Shown here: piece by piece, positions 9,731 through 61,114 of the stretch | How positions within the stretch are numbered: the stretch's first letter is position 1 | How the letters are laid out: each line of letters opens with the position of its first letter | Origin: a virus | Length of the DNA stretch: 62,503 nt | Virus record (IMG/VR): IMGVR_UViG_3300022602_000095 | Coordinates: 1-62,503 of that record | Direction: 5' to 3' (one strand) | Notes under the pieces: generated by a model | Told to the model about the DNA's origin: nothing | Database searches by the model: none | Seen by the model: only the letters and a program-made list of their open reading frames with translations | Translations under genes and position numbers: made by a program

Positions 9731-10003
9731 ATGGCAACAGTACTAATACCAGCACCACTCCGTAAACTAACCAACAACGTAGATACTGTATTTGTAGATG
9801 GATCTACGATCTTAGAGGTTATTGAGAACTTAGATTTCGGTTATCCTGGTATTCAAGAACGGATCTGTAATGAACACGGAGCCATTAGAAACTTTGTGAA
9901 CGTGTACCACAATGATGAGGATGTACGCTTTAAGTCCGGGCTCAGTACTGAGGTTAAGGATACTGATCTTATCTCTATAGTTCCTGCCATTGCCGGTGGT
10001 TAA
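9731..10003 (+). CDS. MoaD/ThiS-family ubiquitin-like sulfur carrier
   Basis: A 90-residue protein with the beta-grasp sulfur-carrier pattern: PAPLRKLTNNVDTVFVDG, then ILEVIENLDFGYPGIQERIC, then VNVYHNDEDVRF, ending VPAIAGG. The terminal Gly-Gly is the hallmark of MoaD, ThiS and CysO, which are adenylated and thiocarboxylated there. The sequence looks closest to the CysO/MoaD-like group of bacterial carriers. TATACT at 9718-9723 precedes the start by 7 nt. No E1-like adenylase or JAMM protease is seen in the window, so host partners may be used. Unusual for a T4-like phage. Confidence 0.85.
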   Translation: MATVLIPAPLRKLTNNVDTVFVDGSTILEVIENLDFGYPGIQERICNEHGAIRNFVNVYHNDEDVRFKSGLSTEVKDTDLISIVPAIAGG

Positions 10004-10065
10004 TAATTTTTTTTTTGTTTCCGGGCCGACTGGCGTTGAAGGGTAGGGTTAACTAAATAGCTTAG

Positions 10066-10306
10066 ATGAAGATGTTTAAAGCTTTTGTTGAAAGTTCACT
10101 AGAGAAGTATCATCATCATGCCAAGCATTCTAAAGCTGAAGCCGGCTATCAGGCACGTCCTTATAAAGGTCAGATCTGTAAGCTATGTACTATGTGGAGA
10201 CCTCCTAATGGGTGTACGGCTGTGAGTGGGTATAATAAACCCAAAGGGGTGGTGTGAGTGGTATAAACGCTCTAAGCTTCCGGCCGGGCATACTAAGGAA
10301 GGATAA
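10066..10306 (+). pseudogene. Four-Cys (HiPIP-like) small protein with +1 frameshift
   Basis: Frame 0 from ATG 10066 encodes 63 residues and stops at 10257. Skipping one G in AAAGGGGTGG (10243-10252) restores WCEWYKRSKLPAGHTKEG, ending at 10306. The joined product carries C-x2-C, a third Cys in PPNGC and a fourth in GWC, a layout like the high-potential iron-sulfur-type small phage proteins. The N-terminus MKMFKAFVESS resembles a T4 internal-protein targeting peptide with possible cleavage after F-V-E. CTAAATA lies 6 nt before ATG (late-type). The extra G is a mutation, a homopolymer error or a programmed slip. Confidence 0.55.
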
Positions 10307-10334
10307 GAATTTAAATCGTTCTAAAGCCGGGCCG

Positions 10335-10376
10335 GGCTCGAAGGCATGAAGGGTTCTGTGAAAAAAGAACCTTAGA
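10335..10376 (+). terminator. Hairpin before the 10396 gene
   Basis: AAGGGTTCT-gtgaaaa-AGAACCTT can form a stem-loop just upstream of the late promoter at 10378. It probably separates the two transcription units. Confidence 0.4.
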
Positions 10377-10377
10377 C

Positions 10378-10385
10378 TATAAATA
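10378..10385 (+). promoter_or_regulatory. T4-type late promoter
   Basis: TATAAATA, exact T4 late consensus, 10 nt before the ATG at 10396. Confidence 0.7.
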
Positions 10386-10395
10386 TTACTATAAT

Positions 10396-10953
10396 ATGAG
10401 TTCCCAGGATTTTCACCGCATTGACGAAGTCTATCACAATATCTATAGAAATAAGTTCCATAGAGAAGAACCTTTAATTCAAGAAGAAGACTCGATGTCT
10501 GAGGACGAAGAGTATCATGTTAAGGCCAAGGATCATGCTGAAGAAGCTGCTAAGGCCATCATGCACAAGCTTAAGCTCGAGTACGGTGATAAGTTTAATC
10601 CTGAGAAGGCAAAGGCCGCTGTTCAACACGCCTTGGGTTCAACCTCAGAGGATTGTGAAGAGTGGATGTTAAAACAGGACTACTCCCATACCCCCCAGCA
10701 GAAGAAAGGTTTAATTGATTACCTTAAGTCTGAAGATTCAGAAGAAACAGACCATAAGGCATATGATGATGCTAAGGCTGTAATTAAGCGTATTGGCAGC
10801 AAGATCGTTCATTGTCTTACCAATAGAAATAGTGACAATACATTTAAGAAGGAATTAGTACCAGTTGAGGCAACTCCTGAGAAGGCCCAATTTGTTATCT
10901 TTGATGAAGAGACAGAAAAGCCTTATAAGGTTTCTGTAGAGCTTGCCAAGTAA
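10396..10953 (+). CDS. Late protein of unknown function, acidic/helical
   Basis: A 185-residue, charged, helical protein. The N-terminus (DFHRIDEVYHNIYRNKFHREE) resembles the start of several other late proteins here. Residues 35-110 are rich in E, K and A. It is transcribed from an exact late promoter, so a virion or packaged protein is likely (inference). The following gene starts 4 nt after its stop. Family not recognised. Confidence 0.6.
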   Translation: MSSQDFHRIDEVYHNIYRNKFHREEPLIQEEDSMSEDEEYHVKAKDHAEEAAKAIMHKLKLEYGDKFNPEKAKAAVQHALGSTSEDCEEWMLKQDYSHTPQQKKGLIDYLKSEDSEETDHKAYDDAKAVIKRIGSKIVHCLTNRNSDNTFKKELVPVEATPEKAQFVIFDEETEKPYKVSVELAK

Positions 10954-10957
10954 AAAT

Positions 10958-11488
10958 ATGAATAACGATAGTAAACTTATTTTTGAAGCTTATAAGAAGA
11001 GACTTCAAGAAGAGGTATCAAAAGAGCTTACCATTGATACTATTAAGGATGCTATTGATACAACGCTTGAACCTTTCTGTGATTCAGGCATTAGCTTTAC
11101 ATCTGAAGGTAAAGTATCAAAGTATCTAGGTGATAAGAAGATAGCCCATTGGGAGGATGATGAGAATTACCGTAAAGCGGCAGCTCTCTTTGACGAGCTT
11201 GCTCAGAAGAGTTCAATGGCTGATAAGAATTTTTCATACGACCAGCATCCAGATGACGAGGAAGAGACACCGGAGTTTAAAGCTGCCATAGCCAAGCACA
11301 GAGAAGAGCTCAAGGCTAGAGGCTGGGAGCCTATGGAGCATGGTGGTTCAATAAAGAACCAAGGTGGTGATACACTCTTTTATTTCTGGAGTGGTGAGAG
11401 CTACTACAAAGGCGCTGCTTTAGAGAGTTCTATTAGAACAGCTAAAGAACACGGCTTTAAGAAAGTCGTATTAGTTCCTCAGGGCTAA
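10958..11488 (+). CDS. Late protein with propeptide-like N-terminus
   Basis: A 176-residue protein. ATG 10958 is chosen over the in-frame TTG at 10943. The N-terminus MNNDSKLIFEAYKKRLQEE has an I-F-E-A site that fits the T4 gp21 cleavage rule (L/I-x-E). The C-terminal half (GWEPMEHGGSIKNQGGDTLF, then YYKGAALESSIRTA) looks like a folded alpha/beta domain but is not recognised. It is co-transcribed with the 10396 gene. Confidence 0.6.
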   Translation: MNNDSKLIFEAYKKRLQEEVSKELTIDTIKDAIDTTLEPFCDSGISFTSEGKVSKYLGDKKIAHWEDDENYRKAAALFDELAQKSSMADKNFSYDQHPDDEEETPEFKAAIAKHREELKARGWEPMEHGGSIKNQGGDTLFYFWSGESYYKGAALESSIRTAKEHGFKKVVLVPQG

Positions 11489-11531: not shown

Positions 11532-11810
11532 ATGTTGTATAAGAGTATATTAAGAGATATCTCAGGTGCAGTCATGGCTATCTCGTTCATGCTGTGTTAT
11601 TTACCACAGATTCTTAAGATTATTAAGACTCGTTCCTCTTCTGATATATCGCCTACTATGATCTTCTTAGGTCTTTCCGGTTATATATTTGGTATGATCT
11701 ATATGTTCCTTAATGTGTTCGGAACCTGGTGGTTCCTTAATTACCTGACCGGAATCATTAGTTCCTTGTTCCTTTTATACTATTGGTACAGGCACAGGAA
11801 CGGTTCCTAA
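11532..11810 (+). CDS. SemiSWEET/PQ-loop sugar transporter-like protein
   Basis: A 92-residue membrane protein with three predicted helices (about residues 8-25, 42-62 and 66-84). The segment CYLPQILKIIKTRSSSDISP is the diagnostic PQ-loop, matching bacterial SemiSWEETs, which are about 90 residues long, have three helices and work as dimers that pass sugars. A helix-2 motif (LGLSGYIFGMIYMFLN) also fits. It has a perfect early promoter. A phage copy could alter sugar movement in the infected cell (inference). A different PQ-loop substrate is possible. Confidence 0.85.
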   Translation: MLYKSILRDISGAVMAISFMLCYLPQILKIIKTRSSSDISPTMIFLGLSGYIFGMIYMFLNVFGTWWFLNYLTGIISSLFLLYYWYRHRNGS

Positions 11811-11893: not shown

Positions 11894-12829
11894 TTATCTT
11901 GGTATAAAGATAGTATCGAAATTAACGTACAAGGTGGAACCTTGGGCACGAACACCTTCAAGAATTGCCTTTGGAGGAAGATTCTTAATGTGATTATCAT
12001 CTACAAGGTAATACTTTACATTACCATTTGCTAATACGTTAACGACATATCCACCATAACCGGGCTTTTTCTTGAGCTTTGTATCAAGGAATGCCTTAAG
12101 CATGGCAACAGCACCATCTTCTTGTGTAAAATTATTTGATGAAAGACCTAATCCATTTAATAACGTACTAATCTGATCGTAGACGCTCTTAATGGGAATG
12201 AAATTTGGCGCAACAGCTTTAAGCTGACTATTATCGTCCAATGTTTTTACTACTTGAAATGCTTGTTTGAGTTCTTCAGTATTGAATGTATCTAATGAAG
12301 GTGTGCGGCCGCCTTCATTAGTAGTTAAAAGATTACTAAAAAGAGTTTTGAGTCCAAATGCAATTGATAAGAGTTTGCGGTTTTCACTTTGGTTACCGAA
12401 TCTACCGATTCCCTTTGTACCTGTTGTGCCTTTTCTTTTTGACTCCGGATAGGATTTAACTTCCAAGCCAACGGTACCATTAAGACGTAAATCTGGATTA
12501 TCACTTTCACGTGTATCCTCTACACCAAAGCTACTTGACAAAAGCCAATATAAAGCAACCTCGCCATTACCAACACCCTTAGAACCAGCGGCATCAAGAT
12601 CATCACTACCTGCCTTTACAGGTGGGGCTATAGGGAAGAGCTTTCTAAAGCTATCCATATCACGAGGATCAACAGTGAAGCTAGTAAGCTTGCTATAATC
12701 ACCCTTAGGTGCTACAGATGGTATATTTGCAACTTGCTTTGGATCACCAAGGAGATACTTTGCTATTAATTGATTATATTGATCGGAGTTTTGAGATGCT
12801 TCTCTCAACACAAAGTCCTTAAAATTCAT
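11894..12829 (-). CDS. Predicted PD-(D/E)XK nuclease with capsid-targeting-like N-terminus
   Basis: A 311-residue late protein. Its start MNFKDFVLREASQN closely resembles the T4 IPIII capsid-targeting peptide (MKTYQEFIAEA) and contains L-R-E-A, a gp21-type cleavage site. Residues 90-125 hold a nuclease-like pattern: E90 in a helix (GNGEVALYWLL), D113 in NPDLRLNG, and E123-V-K125 in GLEVKSYPE. This is the PD-x(n)-ExK core of restriction-type nucleases; the call is from motif only. TATAAATA (minus strand, 12838-12845) lies 8 nt upstream. A packaged nuclease could act on host DNA at injection (inference). Confidence 0.6.
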   Translation of the reverse strand: MNFKDFVLREASQNSDQYNQLIAKYLLGDPKQVANIPSVAPKGDYSKLTSFTVDPRDMDSFRKLFPIAPPVKAGSDDLDAAGSKGVGNGEVALYWLLSSSFGVEDTRESDNPDLRLNGTVGLEVKSYPESKRKGTTGTKGIGRFGNQSENRKLLSIAFGLKTLFSNLLTTNEGGRTPSLDTFNTEELKQAFQVVKTLDDNSQLKAVAPNFIPIKSVYDQISTLLNGLGLSSNNFTQEDGAVAMLKAFLDTKLKKKPGYGGYVVNVLANGNVKYYLVDDNHIKNLPPKAILEGVRAQGSTLYVNFDTIFIPR

Positions 12830-13672: not shown

Positions 13673-14005
13673 ATGGTCAACGACATGTATGCCATCTTTG
13701 AATCGTATAAGCAGCTTAGAGAAGATCGAGCAGATTTAAGCGGTCTATCCACAGGTACAAATTTAAATGCTAATATTGATCATAATATTAGAAGCAATAT
13801 ACTCACCGGTGGTCAGGGTGCTACTCAGGATTATTCAGCCGGTGGCGGTGTAACGGCAGCGGGCGAAAATAATCAAGAACCAGCTTCTAAGGATATAGCT
13901 AAGATATTGAAGAGTTTAAATAAGTGTGCATACACTGCTGATTATAAACAAATGTTAGTTGATTGTATGCATCTTAGTAAGCTTATACAAAAGCTTATCA
14001 AATAA
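13673..14005 (+). CDS. Late protein with propeptide-like N-terminus
   Basis: A 110-residue protein. The N-terminus MVNDMYAIFESYKQLRED contains I-F-E-S, a possible gp21 cleavage site, and resembles the 10958 gene (KLIFEAYKKRLQEE). The middle is Gly/Asn-rich and flexible; the C-terminus is a helix with two Cys. CTAAATA (13660-13666) ends 6 nt before ATG, a late-type promoter. Probably a packaged or virion protein (inference). Confidence 0.6.
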   Translation: MVNDMYAIFESYKQLREDRADLSGLSTGTNLNANIDHNIRSNILTGGQGATQDYSAGGGVTAAGENNQEPASKDIAKILKSLNKCAYTADYKQMLVDCMHLSKLIQKLIK

Positions 14006-14040: not shown

Positions 14041-14514
14041 ATGGATACTATAACAAAGAATTTGGCTTGGACTGATATTTTCTATGGAGTTACTTCATTA
14101 GAAGAGCTTCTCAAGGGGGATAATTTTATCCCTGATGTTATTATTACTATTGGCCGAGGTGGTATGATCCCAGGTACCCTTCTTGCCTATCGCTTAGATG
14201 TAAAAATTGTACAAAACTTTTCTGTACAAACGTATAATGAAAAAAACGTAAAGTCGGGTTTTATTATCTCTATTCAGGAACCCGGTCATAGTCTAGCCCT
14301 TAAGCATCGTGATGACAAGATCTTAGTCGTTGATGATATTTCCGATGGCGGTTCGACTCTTGAGTATATTAAAAATGAATTAGCAACAAACTACGGACTC
14401 AATAATCTTCGCTTTGCTACCCTCTATACAAAACCTCATACCACGTTTGTACCTGATTATTACGTAACTGAATATCCAAATGATTCTTGGATTATATTTC
14501 CCTGGGAGGTTTAA
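14041..14514 (+). CDS. Type I phosphoribosyltransferase (purine PRTase-like)
   Basis: A 157-residue protein with the PRPP-binding signature ILVVDDISDGGSTLEYI near residues 104-120 and a GRGGMIPGTLLAYRL loop near residue 45. It most resembles Gpt/Xpt-like hypoxanthine, guanine or xanthine phosphoribosyltransferases that turn free bases into nucleotides with PRPP. The phage could use it to salvage purines from degraded host DNA. It has its own early promoter. Exact base specificity cannot be read from the sequence. Confidence 0.85.
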   Translation: MDTITKNLAWTDIFYGVTSLEELLKGDNFIPDVIITIGRGGMIPGTLLAYRLDVKIVQNFSVQTYNEKNVKSGFIISIQEPGHSLALKHRDDKILVVDDISDGGSTLEYIKNELATNYGLNNLRFATLYTKPHTTFVPDYYVTEYPNDSWIIFPWEV

Positions 14515-14738
14515 TCCTTAAGAATAGAAGAAAGAATCTCTAAGAGTTTATTAGCATCCTTCTTCTTGAGAGTAAATTGTCTCTCTTTAGGCAAGAGATT
14601 ACCACCAATTGCTGATAGATTACTTGGAAACGTATCATTAATGTTACCAGTGGTCATGCCAATATCAGGACCAGTTTGAATGGTGTTTTGACTTTTTGGC
14701 GAGATATTAAAATCTTCTACTAACTTATTGAATTTCAT
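14511..14738 (-). CDS. Small late protein with propeptide-like N-terminus
   Basis: A 75-residue protein. MKFNKLVEDFNISPK carries L-V-E-D, fitting the (L/I)-x-E cleavage rule, then a Gly/Asn/Pro-rich linker and a C-terminal basic helix (LKKKDANKLLEILSSILKD). It lies downstream of, and overlaps by 14 nt, the fibre-assembly gene. Possibly a packaged protein (inference). Confidence 0.55.
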   Translation of the reverse strand: MKFNKLVEDFNISPKSQNTIQTGPDIGMTTGNINDTFPSNLSAIGGNLLPKERQFTLKKKDANKLLEILSSILKD

Positions 14739-25907: not shown

Positions 25908-27434
25908 TTAGAAGTAAACAGACTGAGTAGCAGGCGTAAATGCTGTACTGAGACCCTGAAGAATAATGACGTGGTAATAAAGATTCGCACCGAAGATGTT
26001 ATCTACAACGCCATAACGGGTTAATAGACCAACACGTGGTGAGAAATCGTTAGGACCGATGGTACGCTGAACCATTACAGGGATGTAAGGGCAGTAGATG
26101 ATACCAGTGTCATAGAACTCAGGCCCCTTGTAACCAAGGAGTGCGTAGTCAAGGCGTGTTGTACGAGTGCTATTGGCGGGGAAACCACCTTTACCACCGA
26201 AGTTACCTCCGGCGTTAGCCTCGAACTGTGCCTCTGTACGTGTGTCACGATAAACATTAAAACGACCGGCCAATGAGCCTACCTTTGCAACACCAACGGG
26301 CTGTGTATTTACTGAACCCTGTACTGGTACCCACTGGAATTCAGGGAGCATTTCTAGGATTGCGCAAACGCGAGGTGTACCAACTACGAAGTTGGCGGAA
26401 CCACGGCGGTTACGTACAGCGATACGATTAGCCTCAATGATGAGTCTCTGATAGAAGTCACGATTACGCTCAACGAGCCAACGACCATCGGCTGAAGCAG
26501 GATTCCAGATTGAGAAGCCTACGCCGTAACCGGCGTTAAGGGCTGTCTGAATCATACGGATGATCATTTCACGGTCGATTTCGGCCTGAAGCTCATATGA
26601 CATAGCATTTGTGAGCTCAGTATCGATATCGATACCGTTCATGTTCTTAAGATCCTGTTCAAGCTCAACGGACCAGCGAGCTGCAAGACGGCGTGTGCCG
26701 GCTTCAACTGCTGTCTTCTCAAAGCTGACGACGATCTGTGGGATGTTACTGCTTAACTCAAACTGGCTGAGTAATGCTGCAACGCCCTGATCTTCAACAG
26801 GAATGACGAAGGATGAACCTGCGCCTAAACCGGAGAGAGACTGTGAGCTCGCACCTGTGAAGGCTGTGTTGAGGTACTGATAACCTAATTCTGGGTTAGC
26901 TGAGAGGGCATTGTTTGCATTACCAGCATACTGTTGTGTGCTGGAAGCATCAAGGGAACCTGTCTGATAACCAAGTGAGGTTGGTTCGTACTTATAACGG
27001 AGTGCAAAAGCAAGACCGACTGGGCCACTCATTGGCTGAACACCAACAATCTCGTTTGTTATGAGTTCAGGGAATGTACGTCTGATCATCGGAATGAGGA
27101 TCTTAGGGAGACGAGCGTCACCGGAAGCATAAGCTGAATCGTTCTGTGATGGGAACTGATTGCCATATGAACCTGCGCCACCTGTTTCACCACCGAAAAC
27201 GCCACTACCTGCAACGCCGTAACCGCCAGCTGTGCCGCCGGATTGGTTTGAGGCCTCAAAGCACCACTTCTCTTGGTTCTCAAGGAGGATAGCGGTGTTT
27301 AAGCGTGTGTGGTCGTCTTCAATTGCGCGAACGTTGTTGGATGTGTAATCCAATACTGGACTCCACTTCTCAAGCAATGTACGCGCACTTCTCTCATCGA
27401 TGTAAGACTGTGAAGGACGGATTGATTTTGACAT
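25908..27434 (-). CDS. gp23: gp23-like major capsid protein
   Basis: A 508-residue protein (T4 gp23 has 521). The N-terminal part (LLEKWSPVLDYTS) is typical of T4-like capsid proteins, followed near residue 60 by KWCFEAS, a candidate gp21 cleavage site, and a Gly-rich linker. SYGNQFPSQNDSAYASGDAR (residues 89-108) and IPMIRRTFPELITNEIVGVQ follow. The C-terminal half contains RVCAILEMLPEF and other shell-lattice segments. It carries a longer leader than most late genes here. Residues about 89-113 are echoed in the 60869-61114 protein. Confidence 0.9.
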   Translation of the reverse strand: MSKSIRPSQSYIDERSARTLLEKWSPVLDYTSNNVRAIEDDHTRLNTAILLENQEKWCFEASNQSGGTAGGYGVAGSGVFGGETGGAGSYGNQFPSQNDSAYASGDARLPKILIPMIRRTFPELITNEIVGVQPMSGPVGLAFALRYKYEPTSLGYQTGSLDASSTQQYAGNANNALSANPELGYQYLNTAFTGASSQSLSGLGAGSSFVIPVEDQGVAALLSQFELSSNIPQIVVSFEKTAVEAGTRRLAARWSVELEQDLKNMNGIDIDTELTNAMSYELQAEIDREMIIRMIQTALNAGYGVGFSIWNPASADGRWLVERNRDFYQRLIIEANRIAVRNRRGSANFVVGTPRVCAILEMLPEFQWVPVQGSVNTQPVGVAKVGSLAGRFNVYRDTRTEAQFEANAGGNFGGKGGFPANSTRTTRLDYALLGYKGPEFYDTGIIYCPYIPVMVQRTIGPNDFSPRVGLLTRYGVVDNIFGANLYYHVIILQGLSTAFTPATQSVYF

Positions 27435-53028: not shown

Positions 53029-53223
53029 TTAGAGTAGAATTTTTAGCAAATTATTTACAACCTGATCAAAACTCTCATGCGCGTGTTTGCTTATTTCTAT
53101 GGCTGCAATACGCTTTCTAGCCTTTTCTTTCGATGCGGAAGCACCTGGTACAGTATGCATCTTACCATTCTTTTTATAACGAACTTTGTAACCTGCTTTG
53201 GATTTTTGAATATTGTATGGCAT
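53029..53223 (-). CDS. Small basic protein
   Basis: A 64-residue basic protein. AGYKVRYKKNGKMHTVPGAS then KEKARKRIAAIEISKHAHES follows a pattern (GYKV...K...S...KAxKxxxAIE) recalled from small phage and giant-virus proteins of unknown role. Ends in a hydrophobic VVNNLLKILL. It is downstream of the 53226 gene by 2 nt. Confidence 0.6.
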   Translation of the reverse strand: MPYNIQKSKAGYKVRYKKNGKMHTVPGASASKEKARKRIAAIEISKHAHESFDQVVNNLLKILL

Positions 53224-53225: not shown

Positions 53226-54068
53226 TTATCTTCTTCTATTTACTGGTGATTTACTATGCAATGGATGTGATGGTAAATTCATTTCTGTTTCATCTTTCTT
53301 CGTTGGCGGCTTAACGGGTACACCAGCCTTTGTCTGTGTAGCACCTTTTGTTATAGGTACAGCCGGTATCGTAGCTTTAGAAGGTTGAGTTGAAGGTTGT
53401 GGTATTTGTGTAGTTACTGCAGGTGTTTGTTGGGTAGTAGGCGTTACTGTATTACCTTGTTGTAGATCTATATTATCCGGTTCATTATACACATCTTGAG
53501 CTATCCTATTGAGATCAGAGCTTCTAATCGATGGCATTCCTTTTTTTATTATCGTATCAATTTCTTCAACCGTCTTTGCATCTTTTATCTTTGATTTAAC
53601 AGAAGGGATCAATTTTTGTCCATATCTATCATTAAGTTTTTCTCTGTACTTACTTACAAAAACTTCCTGTTCTTTTTCTCTTTCGTACGATTGACCGTAT
53701 TGACGAATAGTATTACTTGCTTTTTGAGGTGCACCAGTAATTGCTTTACCGGTACTTGCCACTGCACCCCCAACATTTGAAACAGCGCCACCGACTTTAT
53801 TCGCTAAAGCTGCACCTTGCGTACCGCCAAGGGCACCGTATACTTTACCAGCACCTTGAATCACCTTACCGGCTAATTGACCTAATTTACCTAATCCTTG
53901 AATAGTTCGACCTGGTACTTGAGCTACACCCTTAATAGCTCCTTTAGCCATTTTTTTACCTATAGGCTTTTTTGCAGCTGCATTACCGGCACGTTTTGCA
54001 GCATTAACATAATCACTTAATGTACCTTCGTTGAGTACGAGCTCAGCTAAATCGTTAAAATTATTCAT
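53226..54068 (-). CDS. Gly/Ala-rich propeptide-bearing protein
   Basis: A 280-residue protein. MNNFNDLAELVLNEGTLSDY carries L-N-E-G, a gp21-type cleavage site. Residues 20-135 are Gly/Ala/Lys-rich amphipathic repeats (AKGAIKGVAQVPGRTIQGLG, LGKLGQLAGKVIQGAGKVYG), which could insert in membranes or bind DNA. Residues 135-200 are a helical module; 205-280 are Thr/Pro/Gln-rich and disordered. Together with the neighbouring genes it looks like a packaged, ejected protein (inference). It overlaps the next gene by 8 nt. Confidence 0.6.
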   Translation of the reverse strand: MNNFNDLAELVLNEGTLSDYVNAAKRAGNAAAKKPIGKKMAKGAIKGVAQVPGRTIQGLGKLGQLAGKVIQGAGKVYGALGGTQGAALANKVGGAVSNVGGAVASTGKAITGAPQKASNTIRQYGQSYEREKEQEVFVSKYREKLNDRYGQKLIPSVKSKIKDAKTVEEIDTIIKKGMPSIRSSDLNRIAQDVYNEPDNIDLQQGNTVTPTTQQTPAVTTQIPQPSTQPSKATIPAVPITKGATQTKAGVPVKPPTKKDETEMNLPSHPLHSKSPVNRRR

Positions 54069-54489
54069 TGGCTATATAATATTTATAAAGTTGAACTATC
54101 TCTTCTTCCGATAGACCTCTATCTTTAAGGAAAAACTCTACATCGTCGATTGATTCAGCAGCATGAAGCTGCTGTATAAGAGGTTCATCAATTGCAACAT
54201 CGAGAGCTAATATAATAAATTCCTTTAGCGCGTTTAAGTTATCGTTAATGTTTACGTATTGGGATAAATGTTGATTTGGTACATCCATAACAGTCATACT
54301 ACCGTCAGAATTAGGTGATATAACAAGTACTTTTGTAAGTTCTTGATCTTCAGCAAGTACATACCCTTCATATCCATTACATTTCGTTAAATCCTCAGCA
54401 ACGTTCACTGAAGCAGGGTCAACTCTAATACGCACTTTCTTAAGAGATACTTTTTGTAAACTCTCTAAAATGATCTTATCATACTTCAT
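54061..54489 (-). CDS. Late propeptide-bearing protein
   Basis: A 142-residue protein. MKYDKIILESLQKVSLKKVR contains I-L-E-S, fitting the cleavage rule. Residues 20-95 look like a small beta barrel (VRIRVDPASVNVAEDLTKCN, GYEGYVLAEDQELTKVLVIS); the C-terminus is helical (LQQLHAAESIDDVEF-type). CATAAATA (54496-54503) ends 6 nt before ATG, so a leaderless late mRNA is expected. Function unknown. Confidence 0.55.
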   Translation of the reverse strand: MKYDKIILESLQKVSLKKVRIRVDPASVNVAEDLTKCNGYEGYVLAEDQELTKVLVISPNSDGSMTVMDVPNQHLSQYVNINDNLNALKEFIILALDVAIDEPLIQQLHAAESIDDVEFFLKDRGLSEEEIVQLYKYYIANE

Positions 54490-54537: not shown

Positions 54538-55188
54538 ATGTCTGAATATACAAAAGTTGTTAAGCTTAAAGAAGCTAACGGTAATCATCCACGTACAGAA
54601 GATGAAAAGAGGGCTATTATTGAAAAGGCTGCAGCAGCATACGAAGTTTACCTCGATGCTCTTGGATTCGAGTGGCGTAATGATCCTAATAGCTCTGGTA
54701 CCCCACTTAGAGTAGCTAAAGCATTTGTTAATGATCTAGCTGCTGGATGTTATGAAAATCCTCCTAAGATTACATCGTTTCCAAGTAACGGGTATGATGG
54801 TATGGTATTTCAAGGAGGTATTCCTGTCAAATCAATGTGCAGTCATCACCATTTAGCGTTTACAGGGGTTGCGCACGTTGCATATATCCCATCAAAAGAA
54901 GGTCGAGTAATTGGTCTTTCAAAGCTTAATCGTATTGTAGAGCATTATGCTCGTAGACCTCAGATTCAAGAGTCGATGACAGTACAGATTCATACAGCTA
55001 TTAATGATGTATGCGAATTAAATGACGGTGTGGCAGTGGTAGTAAGCGCTACCCATACCTGCGCGTGTTTACGTGGAGTAAAGCATGATGGTTGCGAGAT
55101 GAAGACATCTAAGCTTTCCGGTGACTTCCTTGATGATGCAGCAACAAGGGCAGAGTTTTATAACTTTGTTGCTGATATGAAAAGCTAA
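54538..55188 (+). CDS. folE: FolE, GTP cyclohydrolase I
   Basis: A 216-residue enzyme. Promoter spacing points to ATG 54538 rather than 54532. VKSMCSHHHLAFTGVAHVAY has Cys101 and catalytic/zinc His residues, RVIGLSKLNRIVEHYARRPQ-IQE and AVVVSATHTCACLRGV (second zinc Cys) are diagnostic. It opens GTP to dihydroneopterin triphosphate, the first step towards 7-deazaguanine bases and towards folate. With QueD, QueE and QueF it lets the phage boost preQ1 supply. Early promoter. Confidence 0.95.
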   Translation: MSEYTKVVKLKEANGNHPRTEDEKRAIIEKAAAAYEVYLDALGFEWRNDPNSSGTPLRVAKAFVNDLAAGCYENPPKITSFPSNGYDGMVFQGGIPVKSMCSHHHLAFTGVAHVAYIPSKEGRVIGLSKLNRIVEHYARRPQIQESMTVQIHTAINDVCELNDGVAVVVSATHTCACLRGVKHDGCEMKTSKLSGDFLDDAATRAEFYNFVADMKS

Positions 55189-55595
55189 ACACCCTGCTTT
55201 ACATCTACTAAAGCGTTGAGCCGTTTAATAAACGGCTCTCCTATTAATATTTGCTGTTCATTATCAGCGCGATCAGCTATACTAAAAGTGATATCTTTAT
55301 AATGTTTATTCTTTAAAGTAATATCGAATACAACCGTTGGGCGGCTCTCGATGTTACCACTACCAATATTAATATCAATATTGCCAGTGCAAGGGAGTGT
55401 AATTTTTTTATCATTAATAGTAGTAAAGGTTACGGTATCATCTCCGTTGTGTTTAATGTCTACACCGTGTAGTACATTATAAGCTTCATTACCACTATCT
55501 ATCTTAGCAACAACAGATCCAATCCCATCTATTGTTATATATTCTGTAACTCCAAGAATAGGTCTACTTTGTGTAAAGTCTTTAAATGTTTTCAT
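55185..55595 (-). CDS. Retropepsin-like protease (RimB/PF05618-like) with propeptide
   Basis: A 136-residue protein. SVVAKIDSGNEAYNVLHGVD has the aspartic-protease-like D-S-G, and ESRPTVVFDITLKNKHYKDI then FSIADRADNEQQILIGEPFI-KRL-NALVDVKQG match the RimB/ATP-dependent-zinc-protease-like retropepsin family. The N-terminus MKTFKDFTQSRPILG resembles the capsid-targeting starts of its neighbours, although no clear (L/I)-x-E is present. It may trim packaged or host proteins on entry (inference). Convergent with folE, overlapping 4 nt. Confidence 0.65.
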   Translation of the reverse strand: MKTFKDFTQSRPILGVTEYITIDGIGSVVAKIDSGNEAYNVLHGVDIKHNGDDTVTFTTINDKKITLPCTGNIDINIGSGNIESRPTVVFDITLKNKHYKDITFSIADRADNEQQILIGEPFIKRLNALVDVKQGV

Positions 55596-55601: not shown

Positions 55602-55850
55602 TTATTTTTTCTTCCAGGAAATTCTTTTTGAACTCTTTTTCTTGTTCTTACTACTGTTACACATTGCCATTGTTGGGCGACATGCTGGGTACCCGCGTCT
55701 CTTCTCACCTTTCTGTCTACCACAAGGTTTACCCGTCTTGCAATCTACCCATCCCTTACCATGATTACGTGCAAACCAGCCATGGAGACCTTCTTTCTTT
55801 TCCTTCTCAAAGCCTTCTAATATAAGATTGACTAGGTTATCGAATTTCAT
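55602..55850 (-). CDS. Basic Cys protein with propeptide (GWVDCKTGKPCGR family)
   Basis: An 82-residue, strongly basic protein. MKFDNLVNLILEGFEKEKKE contains I-L-E-G. GKGWVDCKTGKPCGRQKGEK-RRGYPACRPT is a recurrent Cys motif recalled from phage and giant-virus proteins, probably zinc- or nucleic-acid binding. It ends KNKKKSSKRISWKKK. Likely DNA-associated in the head. Start overlaps the 55847 gene stop (ATGA). Confidence 0.65.
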   Translation of the reverse strand: MKFDNLVNLILEGFEKEKKEGLHGWFARNHGKGWVDCKTGKPCGRQKGEKRRGYPACRPTMAMCNSSKNKKKSSKRISWKKK

Positions 55851-55999
55851 TTCTTTTTCCAGATCTTACCTTGGCGACATTTTACTACAGCACCGGACTT
55901 ATAAGCTGATGTTTTACTACCGTATACTGCATCAGCTCTACGTAAACAACGATCACGCTTAACCTTTTTTTCGGTAAGAAATTGCTTGAAAGTTAGCAT
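55847..55999 (-). CDS. 50-residue basic protein with propeptide
   Basis: MLTFKQFLTEKKVKRDRCLR then ADAVYGSKTSAYKSGAVVKC and RQGKIWKKK. The first ten residues are nearly identical to the ligase-like protein at 57578 (MITFKQFLTE), a strong hint of a shared targeting signal. GGAG lies 6 nt before ATG, but inside the upstream coding sequence. It overlaps both neighbours (ATGCTAA upstream, ATGA downstream). A short basic Cys protein, probably DNA-bound in the head. Confidence 0.65.
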   Translation of the reverse strand: MLTFKQFLTEKKVKRDRCLRRADAVYGSKTSAYKSGAVVKCRQGKIWKKK

Positions 56000-56304
56000 T
56001 TCCATCTCCTTCTTGCTGCGCAACCACGTGTATTTTTACCTGCACAACCACCAGCTGGTATCCAGGCTCTACTTCTAGCACAAAAACTCTTTCTACGCTT
56101 TGAAGCCTTTGATCCCTTCTTAACTTTACCTGTTACAGGTGCTTTAAGATGAGATCCAGTCGCACGATTATATTTCGCTCTACCTTTAGCTGTTAAGCCA
56201 CCACCACGACTTACAGGTAATTTTTCACCTCGTTTAATTGAAAGGCTGAGTCCATTCTTTTCTTCCAATACTTCAATGAAGCGCGATTCAAACAAACTTT
56301 GCAT
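55993..56304 (-). CDS. Basic Cys-rich protein with propeptide (KYNRATGS family)
   Basis: A 103-residue protein. MQSLFESRFIEVLEEKNGLS contains L-E-E. GLTAKGRAKYNRATGSHLKA and PVTGKVKKGSKASKRRKSFC-ARS match a small basic family (KGRAKYNRATGSxLKxPV) recalled from phages and large DNA viruses. It ends with GGCAGKNTRGCAARRRWKC. Probably DNA- or metal-binding. GATAAATA (56310-56317) is 5 nt before ATG, so the first of a late, tightly overlapped operon. Confidence 0.7.
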   Translation of the reverse strand: MQSLFESRFIEVLEEKNGLSLSIKRGEKLPVSRGGGLTAKGRAKYNRATGSHLKAPVTGKVKKGSKASKRRKSFCARSRAWIPAGGCAGKNTRGCAARRRWKC

Positions 56305-56339: not shown

Positions 56340-56957
56340 ATGGCTCTTAATTTTATCGATGATATTAATGCTCTCTACGTTAACAGAGTATTCTTAAAGG
56401 AAAATGTTGGTTCAGGTACTGGTCCGAACGTTGACGGTCCATCTGAAGGTAAAGCTGAAGATTACGAAGCACCACATAGAGATTGTTTATGTACAGGTGA
56501 TAGTAATGAATGTTCATGTGAGCACGAAGAAGACGAGATGGTATTTGCGCCAACAAATAAAACAAAAGAAGGTGAATACCCTGAAGATAGTGAGCACAAA
56601 CATCATGAATCAAATGCATATATGGCCAAACAACAGCTTTACAGAACTGTTAAGATGGCATCAATGTTACATGATATTATTAAAGATGAGGAAGAACTTG
56701 AACCTTGGATGGCTGCAAAGATTACTCAAGCTTTCGACGACTTAAATTCAATTTTTGGTTACAAGGACTATCAGCATTTTAGAGATCAAATTGATCACGA
56801 TATGGAGATAGAAGAAAAAACAGAGCACGATCTATATAAGAGTATAGATCAGGGCGGTGAATCGTTGATTAATAAAATCAAAGAAATGATGCGTGGTCAG
56901 TCGAAAGAAAAAGTTGAGACAGCTGTTTACGGTATGATCAAGATGCTCGAAGCTTAA
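56340..56957 (+). CDS. Late acidic protein with propeptide-like N-terminus
   Basis: A 205-residue acidic protein. INALYVNRVFLKENVGSGTG contains L-K-E-N, a candidate cleavage site. A Cys cluster near residue 50 (DCLCTGDSNECSCEHEEDEM) may bind metal. The C-terminal 110 residues are helical (MASMLHDIIKDEEELEPWMA-AKI). The function is unknown; likely a virion or packaged protein. Late promoter at 56323. Confidence 0.55.
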   Translation: MALNFIDDINALYVNRVFLKENVGSGTGPNVDGPSEGKAEDYEAPHRDCLCTGDSNECSCEHEEDEMVFAPTNKTKEGEYPEDSEHKHHESNAYMAKQQLYRTVKMASMLHDIIKDEEELEPWMAAKITQAFDDLNSIFGYKDYQHFRDQIDHDMEIEEKTEHDLYKSIDQGGESLINKIKEMMRGQSKEKVETAVYGMIKMLEA

Positions 56958-56958
56958 T

Positions 56959-57576
56959 TTATTTCAAATTCTTTCTTATATCATCAAAAAGAACTCTTGC
57001 CTCATCTTCAGGCATCCCTGTAGGTAAAATCTTTTTAAACGCTGTAAAATCTCCTAGTTTAGCCAAATTACGTGCTTTGGTAGCGCTTATTCCCGACGCA
57101 TCATCACTATCTGGATCACGGTTCTCACCAGCTACAGCTGTCTTAAAGCTTGTTAAATTTAAACGCTTTTCAGGATCTGGATTATTAATATATTTGTTAA
57201 ATAAAGCATCATACTCAGCTGCACGGTCACTACCACAAACAAGTGTTAAATCTTGATAACCACTATCAATTAAGAATTGCACAGCGTCAAAGATTGTTTT
57301 AATTTTATCCGAATCAATAAAATTAACTTGCGGCAATGTAGCATTCAAAGCTTTCATCTTATCTGAATACGGAATAGGGTTCTTTTTTGCATCTTGAGTC
57401 TTTGTAACAACTACAAAGGTATCTGCTTTCTCCTGTCTTCCTACTTCAACAGCTTTTGCTATTAATAATTCATGTCCAAGAGTAGGTGGATTCATTCTAC
57501 CAAAAACAAATACAGCTTTTGTATTTGTCGGCTTAATATCAGAAATAATCTTCTCAACAAGTGTTTTAAAGCTCAT
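56959..57576 (-). CDS. HIGH-motif nucleotidyltransferase with propeptide
   Basis: A 205-residue protein. ATG 57576 is chosen over 57633 because it follows the upstream stop by 1 nt and yields the MSFKTLVEKI targeting-like start with L-V-E. KAVFVFGRMNPPTLGHELLI has the T-x-G-H motif of the HIGH superfamily, LTLVCGSDRAAEYDALF and SGISATKARNLAKLGDFTAF (ISxTxxR) complete it. The closest families are NMN or pantetheine-type adenylyltransferases or glycerol-3-phosphate cytidylyltransferases; substrate unknown. Confidence 0.7.
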   Translation of the reverse strand: MSFKTLVEKIISDIKPTNTKAVFVFGRMNPPTLGHELLIAKAVEVGRQEKADTFVVVTKTQDAKKNPIPYSDKMKALNATLPQVNFIDSDKIKTIFDAVQFLIDSGYQDLTLVCGSDRAAEYDALFNKYINNPDPEKRLNLTSFKTAVAGENRDPDSDDASGISATKARNLAKLGDFTAFKKILPTGMPEDEARVLFDDIRKNLK

Positions 57577-57577
57577 A

Positions 57578-58693
57578 TTATGATCCAAATTTTTCTGCAC
57601 CTGCCTCACCACCACCAACACCATATGGTGCACCTACAAAAATTGTTTTATTATTTGTTATGGGATCTGGGTATCCTGAATAATCATCATCTCCTAATAA
57701 TGCATTAGTACTTGTCATGCCTTCAAGTTCTTCATCATCTTCTCTTTCTTGAGCTCCAAATTTCGAGCTCATGAAATGCGGACTATTTACCTTAAACATT
57801 AGATCGCCAGCCTTAATAACATATCCCTCAATATCACCAAGAAGACCTTCAGTCTTAAGAAGATTATTAACAATCTTTGTATACATCTGTTTTTGTATAG
57901 GTAAAAGCTTTTCATTAATCTTAGATTCAAGTTCTTTTCTACGCTGAACAAGCTTGTTGCGACCAGGTCCACCAATAGCAATTTGATCTTTTAACTCCGT
58001 TAGTTCCTGTTCTATCTTAGTTAAATTACTAAGAGCCTTCTGTGCATTTAGTAATTCAGGTCTAAGATCAATTGAATGAAAAACATTAACGTTAGGTAAA
58101 ATAAATTTTACCTCCTTATCATTAATAGATGTTAGTTTCTTGATGATCGAAGCGGCATTAGTACCCTCTTCTCCTTGTACATTAATAACAATAAATGTCG
58201 ACCAAGTACCTAATCTATCCTTATTATATTGTGCAACAACAAAACTTACTTTTCCGGAATTAGGATCTGCTTCGAGTGCATTAGGTGAATAGAGCCATTC
58301 AAGTTGAACAGTAACATTATGCTTACCGATAATTGGACTAATTAAATGCTTAATGCGTTCAAAGCTATTCATAAACGCCTGGCGAGCTGGTGGATATTTA
58401 ATAGCAGTTATAAAATCTTCAGGTTTATATACTTTACCTGAATAGCTTGAGCGTACAAAAAATCCATTCTCGTCATTGCCAACCTTAAGAGCCATACCGT
58501 CAACTTTCTCTGTTACAGTTGAATTCTCAGGTGTAATCATTCCCTTGTTTTGCTGTAAATAGCTAACAAAGCGTTTAAAGTTATCTATACTCATTGAGTA
58601 TAACTCCGGCTTATTTTGGGAATAAAGATGTTGGATACCTACTCTATCACCCTCTTTTGGTGCTTCTGTTAAAAATTGTTTAAATGTAATCAT
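57578..58693 (-). CDS. ATP-dependent ligase-like nucleotidyltransferase with propeptide
   Basis: A 371-residue protein. MITFKQFLTEAPKEGDRVGI carries L-T-E-A. TEKVDGMALKVG contains K63-x-D-G (motif I nucleophile), VQLEWLYSP has E132 (motif III), DIEGYVIKAG has E289-G and K294 (motif IV), and LMFKVNSPHF the motif V-like K301. This is the covalent nucleotidyltransferase (DNA/RNA ligase) core. The acidic C-terminal tail (REDDEELEGMTSTN) and a long coiled region (220-275) are extra. Linked by ATGA to the next gene. Confidence 0.75.
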   Translation of the reverse strand: MITFKQFLTEAPKEGDRVGIQHLYSQNKPELYSMSIDNFKRFVSYLQQNKGMITPENSTVTEKVDGMALKVGNDENGFFVRSSYSGKVYKPEDFITAIKYPPARQAFMNSFERIKHLISPIIGKHNVTVQLEWLYSPNALEADPNSGKVSFVVAQYNKDRLGTWSTFIVINVQGEEGTNAASIIKKLTSINDKEVKFILPNVNVFHSIDLRPELLNAQKALSNLTKIEQELTELKDQIAIGGPGRNKLVQRRKELESKINEKLLPIQKQMYTKIVNNLLKTEGLLGDIEGYVIKAGDLMFKVNSPHFMSSKFGAQEREDDEELEGMTSTNALLGDDDYSGYPDPITNNKTIFVGAPYGVGGGEAGAEKFGS

Positions 58694-59385
58694 AAAAATG
58701 TATGTCCTGTTGTTACTTCTGCGTCTTTTACAATTTCCTTCGCCTGAGCAGAGCCATATATTTGTACAAGCTTCTTAGTAATTGTCTGTATATTATTTAA
58801 ATCTTTAGCAGTAGAATTTTTATCAAAAATTGCTTTTGCAATTATATCAGGATCTCTAGAGATGAGTTGTTTTGTTTCTCTACTGAATAGACCGTTTGTC
58901 GATAACGTAAGTCCTTTATGTTTAGCTATAGCTGATAAAAGGATATTTCTATCCCTACCCTTAAAGGGAACTTGTTCATTAGCTGCATAAAAGAATTTAA
59001 GATACTCAGGATCGTCATGGAACATAAAATCTACCTGTACAAAATTACCTGTCATCTTACCTTCTTTATTCCAAACTGGCGATAAGAAGTGTACTGATAC
59101 TCCTGATTTTTTTGTGCCTATAATATCGTTATTATTTTTTTTCCAGAATTCTTGCAATTTACTCTCCAAGGTTGCCTTACTAATAGTTTTTGCATCAACA
59201 ACAAGATCTATATCGCCAGAATCAGCAGCTCTGCCTGTTGTACCAAGCATATTATTTAAAAGTGGAAGACCGGTAATTCTCTCAAGATGCCGTACTGTGG
59301 GTACGACGTCTTCACGAGATATACGGCCTGTATCTGTAAATACATTGCCACCTTCTTTTAAAATATATGACTTAAAGGTTAACAT
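58690..59385 (-). CDS. Pol-beta-type nucleotidyltransferase with propeptide
   Basis: A 231-residue protein. MLTFKSYILKEGGNVFTDTG has L-K-E-G. LGTTGRAADSGDIDLVVDAK has the catalytic pair D58 and D60, and NFVQVDFMFHDDPEYL supplies the third Asp (D119). PFKGRDRNILLSAIAKHKGL is a downstream helix typical of the family. Enzymes of this fold add nucleotides to proteins, RNA or antibiotics. Together with the ligase-like and HIGH-type genes it forms a three-transferase cassette. Confidence 0.75.
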   Translation of the reverse strand: MLTFKSYILKEGGNVFTDTGRISREDVVPTVRHLERITGLPLLNNMLGTTGRAADSGDIDLVVDAKTISKATLESKLQEFWKKNNNDIIGTKKSGVSVHFLSPVWNKEGKMTGNFVQVDFMFHDDPEYLKFFYAANEQVPFKGRDRNILLSAIAKHKGLTLSTNGLFSRETKQLISRDPDIIAKAIFDKNSTAKDLNNIQTITKKLVQIYGSAQAKEIVKDAEVTTGHTFL

Positions 59386-59824
59386 CAGTCTTTAAGTAAG
59401 GATCTTGCTTATTCATGGCCGCAAGTATCTGCTTATATTTGTTTATAAAGTTACCCGTATTAATACTATTGATAAACTTCTTAACATTAATATTATCCAA
59501 TCTTTCAGGATTATCAGCATACATTTCGTTTTGTTTAATAGCAGCTTCTAAGGCTGTCTGCATTGGAAATGCATTTTCTGCTGTAATATCTGTTCTATAA
59601 ATTTCATCCAAAGCACCTGGTGGAAAAGTCATTGCAGCTGCTTTTGATAAAAGATTAACAAGCCCTACATAACCCTCAGGAGCAACTTGCGCTACGGTAT
59701 TATCGGTAGGTGCTGGTGCATTAGGATCAGGCGCTGTAGCATCAGGCGCTGCAGCATCAGCTGATGTGTCATCTGCTTCATTAAGAACTGACCATTCCTT
59801 GTTAATTTTATCGATAAATTTCAT
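59372..59824 (-). CDS. Acidic Ala/Pro/Asp-rich late protein with propeptide
   Basis: A 150-residue protein. MKFIDKINKEWSVLNEADDT has L-N-E-A. Residues 18-45 are Ala/Asp/Pro low complexity (AAAPDATAPDPNAPAPTD). The rest is helical (GLVNLLSKAAAMTFPPGALD). It overlaps the nucleotidyltransferase start by 14 nt. CTAAATA about 6 nt before ATG suggests late expression. Function unknown; perhaps a scaffold for the cassette. Confidence 0.55.
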   Translation of the reverse strand: MKFIDKINKEWSVLNEADDTSADAAAPDATAPDPNAPAPTDNTVAQVAPEGYVGLVNLLSKAAAMTFPPGALDEIYRTDITAENAFPMQTALEAAIKQNEMYADNPERLDNINVKKFINSINTGNFINKYKQILAAMNKQDPYLKTDVNL

Positions 59825-59840
59825 CGTAAGTATTTAGTAT

Positions 59841-60416
59841 CTATACATAGATAAGTTGCTTTGTTTTGAGTTGTTCAAAGTACTTCTCACTTAGAAATGT
59901 TAATTCATTACGTTTAACGAAATTCTTAACTCTTGCAAATGTATAATATGATCTAATAAAGCTTTTCTCCCAAGCAAAATTACGAATACGCTCAATGAGT
60001 TCTACAACATCACCGTTACGTTTTGTATATAAATGATTGATTAAATTAAATTCAATATTTTCATAACCATATATGCTTATTGGTAGAAGTTTAGCCAGCT
60101 GTAATGCAGCTCTATCAACGTATCTTTCAATTTGTTGTTTGTCAAAATATTGTATGATACGAGTATTTGAAAGATCTAATTGTATAGATTTAAGAATAAC
60201 AATACGTTCTTTTGATTTTAAAGAGAGCAAATATTCACAAGTACCGTGAAAGATGTGATGATATAGAAGTTTCTTAATATCTTTAGTGATTTTCTTCGAT
60301 GTAAGAAGCTGATATTTTGCAAGATCATTAATAAAATCAATCTCTATAGTGCTAAAGATTGACTCAAAACTTATTAATCTAAGATTAAACTGATTAAATG
60401 TACAACTCTCAATCAC
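59841..60416 (-). CDS. Hypothetical helical protein
   Basis: A 191-residue basic, helical protein (MIESCTFNQFNLRLISFESI...), rich in I, L, K and aromatic residues. No domain or catalytic motif recognised. It lies 15 nt after the GIY-YIG gene and 16 nt before the propeptide-bearing cassette, so it may be transcribed with them. Confidence 0.55.
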   Translation of the reverse strand: MIESCTFNQFNLRLISFESIFSTIEIDFINDLAKYQLLTSKKITKDIKKLLYHHIFHGTCEYLLSLKSKERIVILKSIQLDLSNTRIIQYFDKQQIERYVDRAALQLAKLLPISIYGYENIEFNLINHLYTKRNGDVVELIERIRNFAWEKSFIRSYYTFARVKNFVKRNELTFLSEKYFEQLKTKQLIYV

Positions 60417-60431
60417 TAATTCATTATAACA

Positions 60432-60857
60432 CTATAAATTATAATTTGCAAGCTCTTGTTTTGGAGCTTTTCCTATTCTTACATTACATATACCATTATA
60501 ATAATCATCTCTTAAAAGTACATCTTCACCTAGCTGTTCTTTTATTTCATAATAAGCTAACGCCCATTTAGAGTTACAAGTACGTAGAATCTTAAAAATA
60601 AATTTATCTTTACCGTGCTTTATTATATCCGCATTTAATTCATTAGATGAACTGGTATATGTCTTCCAATCAGATTCTTTGTGTTCAATACGACTATTTT
60701 TCCTACCCTTAAGAGGCTTGCGTTTTATACGGCTTGTACATTGCTTCTTACCGATGTATTTCTTATTATTAACAGTATTAACAATCAAATAAATAAAACC
60801 AAAGGTATCTTCTGTTATAACAACACCTTCATTCAATAACCAATGACCACTATCCAT
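60432..60857 (-). CDS. Small GIY-YIG nuclease
   Basis: A 141-residue protein. GFIYLIVNTVNNKKYIGKKQ is the GIY-YIG motif; HKESDWKTYTSSSNELNADI and KFIFKILRTCNSKWALAYYE (with Arg and Glu) complete the nuclease core. It is short and lacks NUMOD repeats, like widely shared phage GIY-YIG proteins rather than a homing enzyme. The start HWLLNEGVVITED contains L-N-E-G, so it too may be a packaged protein. ACTATC-TACATG-GATAGT around the ATG could form a small hairpin. Confidence 0.75.
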   Translation of the reverse strand: MDSGHWLLNEGVVITEDTFGFIYLIVNTVNNKKYIGKKQCTSRIKRKPLKGRKNSRIEHKESDWKTYTSSSNELNADIIKHGKDKFIFKILRTCNSKWALAYYEIKEQLGEDVLLRDDYYNGICNVRIGKAPKQELANYNL

Positions 60858-60868
60858 GTAGATAGTTA

Positions 60869-61114
60869 TTACACACCTGATAAACGTCTACGTTTAATAG
60901 GTACTTTAACTTTTTTCTTTCTACCTGTCGCCTTAGCACCTAATATAGCAGGCATTCTTGCGTCCCCAGGTGCATAAGCATTATCATTTTGTGAAGGAAA
61001 TTGATTTCCATAATTACCTGATGTTACAGGTCCTGTTACCGCGCCAGCGCCTCCTGCAATGTTGGCAGCCATTTCAGCTAAAAGTCTATCTACAAGTGTA
61101 TTGAAATTGCTCAT
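60869..61114 (-). CDS. Capsid-peptide mimic with basic tail
   Basis: An 81-residue protein. MSNFNTLVDRLLAEMAANIA has L-A-E, a gp21-type site. After a Gly/Ala linker, GNYGNQFPSQNDNAYAPGDA-RMPAIL (about residues 33-58) is almost the same as SYGNQFPSQNDSAYASGDAR-LPKIL in the major capsid protein (residues 89-113).  The end (GRKKKVKVPIKRRR) is strongly basic. It may bind the same partner as the capsid arm and tether DNA (inference). No homologue recognised otherwise. Confidence 0.65.
   Translation of the reverse strand: MSNFNTLVDRLLAEMAANIAGGAGAVTGPVTSGNYGNQFPSQNDNAYAPGDARMPAILGAKATGRKKKVKVPIKRRRLSGV

Follow-up and report, generated by a model that had tools for sequence, protein, structure and literature searches.

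T4 internal-protein-like N-terminal tags on unrelated proteins of an uncultured T4-related phage

The linear 62.5 kb virus record IMGVR_UViG_3300022602_000095, analyzed over its full 62,503 nucleotides (herein the window), encodes a T4-type head module and a set of unrelated proteins that begin with a short tag resembling the N-terminal propeptide of the T4 internal proteins (IPs). An initial annotation had proposed that about 18 such proteins share one signal and travel in the phage head with the DNA. Our computational analysis establishes the tag itself, its enrichment in one gene cluster, its modular reuse, its correspondence to the capsid maturation site, and the detection of homologs of tagged proteins in cyanophage virions.

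Results

PHROG matches define the head module, which lies on the minus strand and comprises a major capsid protein, a gp21-type protease, a head-closure protein, an adaptor-like protein, and a portal. The source phage is a distant, uncultured relative of T4; a DNA search found no close relative of the window among named phages. The genes used as landmarks are as follows.

25908..27434, minus strand: major capsid protein, gp23-like (phrog_138, E = 3.5e-81)
27531..28409, minus strand: probable scaffold/core protein, by its gp22 position between capsid protein and protease
28774..29436, minus strand: T4 gp21-type prohead protease (phrog_207 head maturation protease, E = 1.2e-51)
61151..61540, plus strand: UvsY-like gene flanking the cargo cluster, a neighbor conserved in six relatives

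In the capsid protein, the N-arm GSYGNQFPSQNDSAYASGDARLPKIL comes after a maturation-type site, WCFE-ASNQSGG. The protease, presumably the tag-processing enzyme, itself starts with MSLRLLVE-TPAS. The product of 27531..28409 has no PHROG match, and the UvsY-like name reflects similarity of sequence and context rather than a family search. Gene starts were taken from a purpose-written script, and a few may be wrong. Seven related genomes (G001 through G007) were used for comparison, six of which carry both cluster flank markers.

Tagged genes concentrate in one 9 kb cluster adjoining uvsY (genes are named herein by their left-hand coordinate).

53029..53223, minus strand: small basic protein whose C terminus (ESFDQVVNNLLKILL) is tag-like in sequence; same position in relatives
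53226..54068, minus strand: Ala/Gly/Lys-rich protein, tag MNNFNDLAELVLNEG; Glu14 kept in 3/3 orthologs
54061..54489, minus strand: tagged protein (MKYDKIILES), no function assigned; orthologs in all relatives, most of them tagged
55185..55595, minus strand: retropepsin-fold aspartic peptidase (structure match), IPI-like propeptide MKTFKDFTQSRPILGVTE
55602..55850, minus strand: basic protein, tag MKFDNLVNLILEG; resembles a middle segment of ORF160 of cyanophage S-CREM2
55847..55999, minus strand: 50-residue basic Cys-containing protein, tag MLTFKQFLTEK (exact T4 register); cyanophage homologs
55993..56304, minus strand: basic DUF6321 protein (PF19846, E = 3e-18), tag MQSLFESRFIEVLEE
56340..56957, plus strand: candidate tagged protein (...YVNRVFLKEN, site at residue 21); orthologs in all relatives
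56959..57576, minus strand: cytidylyltransferase/NMNAT-like enzyme (PF01467, phrog_3041), tag MSFKTLVEK
57578..58693, minus strand: ligase-like protein with a KVDG motif (PF09414 RNA_ligase, E = 4e-5, below the family cut-off), tag MITFKQFLTEA
58690..59385, minus strand: tagged protein (MLTFKSYILKEG), nucleotidyltransferase-like by eye (GDIDLVVD); tag retained in G002
59372..59824, minus strand: tagged protein (MKFIDKINKEWSVLNEA), no function assigned; orthologs in seven of seven relatives, all with Glu near residue 15
60432..60857, minus strand: SegE-type GIY-YIG endonuclease (PF19835, E = 3.6e-30; domain from residue 15), tag MDSGHWLLNEG
60869..61114, minus strand: capsid-arm mimic of 81 residues, composed of tag MSNFNTLVDRLLAE, a copy of the mature capsid-protein N-arm, and a K/R-rich tail

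Further tagged genes lie in the 10 to 15 kb region.

10066..10257, plus strand: 63-residue Cys-containing protein, weakly HiPIP-like (PF01355, 17.9 bits, below the cut-off of 22), tag MKMFKAFVES
10396..10953, plus strand: protein with a probable class-B tag (MSSQDFHRIDEVY); ortholog in G002
10958..11488, plus strand: protein with a class-B tag (MNNDSKLIFEAY)
11894..12829, minus strand: nuclease-like protein by eye (PDLRLNGTVGLEVK), tag MNFKDFVLREA; the G002 ortholog begins MNFREYHELYEA
13673..14005, plus strand: protein with a class-B-like tag (MVNDMYAIFESY); orthologs retain YAIYESY
14511..14738, minus strand: 75-residue protein, tag MKFNKLVED; Glu8 kept in 5/5 orthologs

The best-supported cargo proteins are the NMNAT/cytidylyltransferase-like enzyme (56959), the SegE-type GIY-YIG protein (60432), the retropepsin-fold peptidase (55185), and the small basic Cys-containing proteins. 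For 55185, an AlphaFold2 model (pLDDT 83) has the aspartic peptidase RloA as its best PDB match (E = 7.5e-9), and Glu18 is invariant across eight orthologs; the orthologs of 60432 retain the tag, one with Asp in place of Glu. The ligase-like (57578) and nuclease-like (11894) assignments are tentative, drawn from weak matches or motifs picked out by eye. A ligase structure for 57578 was rejected (AlphaFold2 with six close homologs: pLDDT 50, pTM 0.30), and no protein relatives of 57578 were found among named phages. Profile searches gave no significant family match for 58690 and none for 11894, of which no relatives were found in IMG/VR.

All 17 N termini named in the initial annotation are present at the start coordinates listed there, each in an ATG-initiated open reading frame (ORF) of 50 to 371 residues, with the motif beginning at residues 1 through 17. 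That they share a tag pattern is borne out; that the signal is one uniform motif is not, and at least two tag classes can be distinguished. Class A is T4-IP-like, M-K-x-F-x-x-F-h-x-E (h, hydrophobic). Class B, MNxDSxLIFEAY, has one clear window member (10958) and two looser ones (13673 and 10396); it starts 12 unrelated IMG/VR protein clusters, falls outside the T4 register, and may be a separate type. Orthologs of 56340 have class-B-like N termini, e.g., MFRRDAELITEAY. Candidates beyond the 17 are the proteins starting at 55595 (MKTFKDFTQSRPILGVTE, laid out as in T4 IPI), 10396 (MSSQDFHRIDEVY), and 12868 (MLRDARMIAEIAY).

As T4 controls, IPII and IPIII read MKTYQEFIAEA, and IPI reads MKTFKEFTSTTTPVSTITEA, beginning MKTFKEF. 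Residues 4 and 7 of the T4 tag matter for targeting and residues 8 and 10 for processing (PMC9026906), and the window tags share this spacing. The T4 register (aromatic at 4, hydrophobic at 7, within 10 to 19 residues) is exact in MITFKQFLTEA and MLTFKQFLTEK and approximate in the others; the putative hydrophobic-x-E sites lie within about 8 to 21 residues of the N terminus. The Glu of the putative site is kept in 46/64 ortholog comparisons; conservation is 48% both at the remaining N-terminal residues and at Glu residues outside the site.

Enrichment was measured with a loose pattern, [LIVFM]xE by residue 20, and a stricter one, M-x(1-3)-[FY]-x2-[FILVY]-x(1-2)-E. Both were written after the list in the initial annotation had been seen, so the test within the window is not blind; the relatives, DNA scans, and mass spectrometry lists were unseen at that point. 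Within the window, the loose pattern occurs in 13/16 genes of the queD-uvsY cluster (52,211-61,540) and 23/83 genes elsewhere (p = 9e-5), and the strict pattern in 5/16 and 1/83, respectively (p = 3e-4). For the window plus six relatives, the corresponding counts are 82/108 versus 293/1016 (loose, p = 1.5e-21) and 27/108 versus 26/1016 (strict, p = 1.9e-15), p-values to be read in light of the nonindependence of orthologs across related genomes. At internal offsets of 25 through 100 in the cluster proteins, both patterns are at background (15 to 33% loose; 0 to 1% strict). The comparison with shuffled N termini proposed alongside the initial annotation also gave an excess across whole genomes (strict pattern, 4 to 14 observed, 1.2 to 3.7 expected), smaller than in the cluster; because this excess is less dramatic, we regard the signal as concentrated rather than universal.

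The mature parts behind the window tags belong to different families or have no family match, and the same tag recurs on still other proteins. BLAST similarity between 57578 and G003_29550 is confined to residues 1 through 15 (MITFKQFLTEA / MITFKQFLLEG), and in G007 the same slot holds a DUF6267 protein behind MKSFKQFLLKE; two other families thus occupy the slot in relatives, with the tag alone in common. Nucleotidyltransferases of three types (GRMNPPTLGH, GRFQPFHIGH, and GGFKPPHKGH) are each preceded by a tag. A DNA pattern for MKTFK[KQE]F-h-x-E[AG] found at least 125 matches in IMG/VR. Among the matches listed, there are 55 unrelated protein clusters; the matches lie mostly at ORF starts (median 7 codons past an in-frame stop), 80% of the mature parts carry net positive charge, and Pfam names include S-adenosylmethionine (SAM) lyase, CTP transferase, AAA/P-loop zeta-toxin-like kinase, HAD, methyltransferase, glucosaminidase, lytic transglycosylase, and DUF6321. 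Among these, 15 long tagged records were examined for head genes; a gp21-type protease is encoded in 9 of the 15, as is a gp23-type capsid protein (also 9). The same codons in permuted order gave zero matches in IMG/VR, and 257 Gb of bacterial and archaeal genomes gave one class-A match. This lone match lies on a 39.9 kb contig of a Rhodobacter metagenome-assembled genome, possibly a phage contig.

Virion detection is taken herein from two cyanophage data sets, the S-CREM2 mass spectrometry list (Table 3 of PMC10665884) and the S-SCSM1 virion protein data (PMC9602691). For S-CREM2, the count covered genes up to 155 kb: 4/46 detected and 0/161 undetected proteins have the exact T4 register, with an aromatic residue at 4, hydrophobic residues at 7 and 8, and Glu at 10 (p = 0.002). 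The four are a SAM hydrolase (MKDFDSFLEE), an APH-like kinase (VKRFDAFLTE), a cytidylyltransferase (MKNFSSFLTE), and ORF136 (MQTFSMFFSE); detected proteins with variant tags are ORF13 (MKDLHSFLTEQ) and ORF15 (MNFSEFNES). In S-SCSM1, the virion NMNAT begins MKSFLQFLKEA. Hidden Markov models (HMMs) of window families, built without the first 15 residues and run against both phages, matched five virion-detected proteins. The 56959 HMM matches the NMNAT/cytidylyltransferase of S-SCSM1 (1.4e-31) and S-CREM2 (2.5e-23), the latter directly preceded in its genome by UvsY, UvsW, and the late sigma factor; 55993 is homologous to S-CREM2 ORF137 (E = 4.1e-7), and 55847 to S-CREM2 ORF160 and S-SCSM1_29 (E = 1.9e-4 each). 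A link of 58690 to virions via S-CREM2 ORF156 was rejected, the alignment being no better than shuffles. As a separate observation, the virion-detected, Cas9-annotated S-CREM2 ORF12 (7704-10313) has a tag-like RFASFMAEA at residues 18 through 26.

The capsid-arm mimic connects the tag with capsid maturation. An alignment of 80 capsid-protein homologs has a conserved WC-[FLIVM]..E site followed by a variable arm. In the mimic, the tag ends LLAE and is followed by the arm copy GNYGNQFPSQNDNAYAPGDAR and then the K/R-rich tail; none of 1,000 shuffles reached the score of its local alignment with the phage's own capsid protein. In G006 and G003, the arm similarity starts directly after the tag Glu. 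Since a copy of the mature N-arm immediately follows the tag in the mimic, the tag Glu sits at the capsid maturation site. Environmental sequences supplied at least 12 different orthologs, and the design recurs, with each phage's own different arm, in the virion-detected S-CREM2 ORF160 (GATGFTGAAAPEGPVAGYDPLM) and S-SCSM1_97. ORF160 also holds segments resembling 55602 (middle segment; 0/1,000 shuffles reach the score) and 55847, so three small window cargo families meet in one virion-detected protein.

Tag-like C termini were seen on small basic proteins, namely ESFDQVVNNLLKILL (window 53029-53223), KESFDDAVNRVLKEISGL (G006), and KKRTFKEFLEYIE (S-SCSM1_93, 91626-91835, virion-detected); judged by its sequence, 53029 possibly carries a C-terminal tag. 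Homology between 53029 and S-SCSM1_93 is unsupported, though the G006 positional counterpart of 53029 is similar.

A T4-type late-promoter element, [CAT]TAAATA, lies 5 to 7 nt before the start codon in 273/1439 genes of the window and G001 through G007, with a sharp peak at 5 nt; a Shine-Dalgarno-like motif occurs in 8/310 genes with a start-proximal element. In T4 and the two cyanophages, the element is mostly 18 to 35 nt upstream of the start. Given the 5 to 7 nt distance and the known spacing of T4 late transcription start sites from the element, the 5' ends of late mRNAs would fall on the AUG or beside it, and late transcription in the window and its relatives is apparently leaderless.

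Several other features were noted by eye. Genes resembling queE, phoH, queD, and folE adjoin one another at 49475-54532, which suggests 7-deazaguanine modification of the phage DNA, and a long minus-strand block (36824-47759) has glycosyltransferase- and methyltransferase-like genes. Near the 10 to 15 kb tagged genes are a 90-residue ubiquitin/MoaD-like protein ending Gly-Gly (9731-10003) and a small SemiSWEET-like membrane protein (11532-11810). In addition, two related minus-strand proteins (2248-2943 and 4315-5085), encoded among small plus-strand genes, share TTQELSxIEKRRLANRLSYQRNxEKR near their N termini.

Discussion

We consider it highly probable that the window N termini act as capsid-targeting propeptides like those of the T4 internal proteins, serving packaging and gp21-type cleavage in the head, with presumed injection. 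The T4 spacing, the encoded gp21-type protease, capsid protein, and portal, the virion-detected homologs, and the position of the tag Glu at the capsid maturation site all support this reading, as the initial annotation had proposed. In such a scheme, tagged proteins would be made late in infection, the short amphipathic N-terminal segment would bind the prohead core, and the protein would be enclosed as the shell forms. The gp21-type protease would then cut after hydrophobic-x-E, releasing the mature protein within the head, to stay with the DNA and presumably be injected. Sequence points to packaging and cleavage in the source phage, and the T4 precedent suggests delivery into the host, where the cargo may act in host takeover or counter-defense. 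Small basic Cys-containing proteins and a polybasic copy of the capsid arm would form one part of the predicted cargo and enzymes the other: an NMNAT-like nucleotidyltransferase, a peptidase of retropepsin fold, a GIY-YIG nuclease, and proteins resembling ligases and nucleases.

Several observations count against packaging by such a tag. In the S-SCSM1 data, a protein with a perfect tag (MKTFKQFMSES) is encoded but undetected in the virion, as is the homolog of the tagged GIY-YIG protein, and several window cargo families have no homolog in S-CREM2 and S-SCSM1. Listed sites such as VFLKEN and FIEVLEE match the T4 register weakly, Asp replaces the putative cleavage-site Glu in the G002 GIY-YIG protein, and some orthologs look untagged (the G003 ortholog of 54061 and the G004 ligase-slot protein), possibly through start-call errors. 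In S-CREM2, according to its authors, some of the enzymes detected may have copurified (PMC10665884); the tag argues for packaging over copurification of these enzymes.

An unlikely alternative is that tagged proteins are prohead core or assembly components only, the tag taking them to the core, where they are cut or lost and never reach the host. A cargo protein that copies the capsid arm fits such a structural role, but for many tagged proteins, enzymes such as SAM lyase, NMNAT, peptidase, and kinase, no part in assembly is apparent, and tagged enzymes are present in finished cyanophage virions according to the published lists. That the segment instead targets the tail, baseplate, or membrane, or regulates translation, its likeness to T4 being convergent, is very improbable: the register matches the T4 residues that govern targeting to the head and processing, gp21 and gp23 are encoded in tagged records, and in the arm mimic the tag Glu falls on the capsid maturation site. 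We give least weight of all to chance or translation-start bias, whereby AT-rich genomes favor early K/F/N codons and the eye selects x-E. The loose motif is indeed common (hydrophobic-x-E occurs within 20 residues in about 29% of other genes), and some relatives show a modest excess over shuffled N termini at the whole-genome level; yet genes of the same genomes outside the cluster and internal offsets lack the signal, and the permuted and bacterial-genome controls (zero and one) stand against at least 125 matches. Chance is already contradicted for the cluster, although an individual weak member, e.g., 56340, may owe its site to it.

Beyond packaging of the window proteins as T4-type cargo, a wider proposal seems to us evenly poised: that aquatic T4-like phages use a general, modular import code of at least two tag classes that loads almost any protein, giving a large, mostly unexplored injected proteome. 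The code would include a dedicated arm mimic (tag, mature N-arm, and polybasic tail) that occupies arm-binding sites on the inner shell and holds DNA or cargo. Proteins injected with DNA act before any phage gene is expressed, and the injected set is known for few phages. Since tagged proteins occur in virions of cultured relatives, the tag could be used to find phage-delivered cargo, making the injected set readable from genomes, uncultured ones included. It would explain the recurrence of NMNAT, SAM hydrolase, and kinases in cyanophage virion proteomes, nominates SAM removal, NAD metabolism, nucleic-acid repair, and proteolysis as injected activities, and offers new natural tags for loading T4 heads.

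Our literature search, whose coverage was incomplete, found no report extending the tag to cyanophages or environmental T4-like phages, linking it to virion enzymes, or describing a capsid-arm mimic, and no phage text with the strings MKTFKEF, MKTFKQF, or MKTYQEF. The available parts of the S-CREM2 and S-SCSM1 virion accounts (PMC10665884, PMC9602691) make no mention of a packaging signal; the window NMNAT/cytidylyltransferase, DUF6321-like, and basic Cys-containing proteins have homologs among the virion proteins of these phages, and several cyanophage proteins, such as ORF160, fuse domains that are separate in the window. The T-even IPs, found by their signal and shown to be antirestriction proteins, inhibit GmrSD restriction (PMC12373910). 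They are injected, tag-defined, and variable in cargo, as may be true by analogy of the window proteins, but the latter resemble no known GmrSD inhibitor; antirestriction activity may nonetheless extend to such cargo, e.g., the tagged SAM lyase in other environmental phages.

Ejection proteins of the giant phages phiKZ and SPN3US are cleaved after x-E by a related prohead protease, as proposed herein. Most SPN3US propeptides are far longer, several exceeding 100 residues (PMC5694885), whereas the window sites lie within about 21 residues and are unlike the long phiKZ-type propeptides. The closest parallel is with T4 IPI, IPII, and IPIII, which likewise combine a short N-terminal propeptide, aromatic/hydrophobic spacing, hydrophobic-x-E, and unrelated mature parts in a phage with a gp21-type protease. 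Unlike T4, the window yields about 20 candidates within 62 kb. Many are enzymes or larger proteins, most lie in one conserved cluster beside uvsY, and a second tag class and a capsid-arm mimic occur as well. The mechanism is the one already known from the T4 capsid-targeting sequence (PMC9026906); what appears new is how widely it extends, the enzymes among its cargo, and the mimic of the capsid arm.

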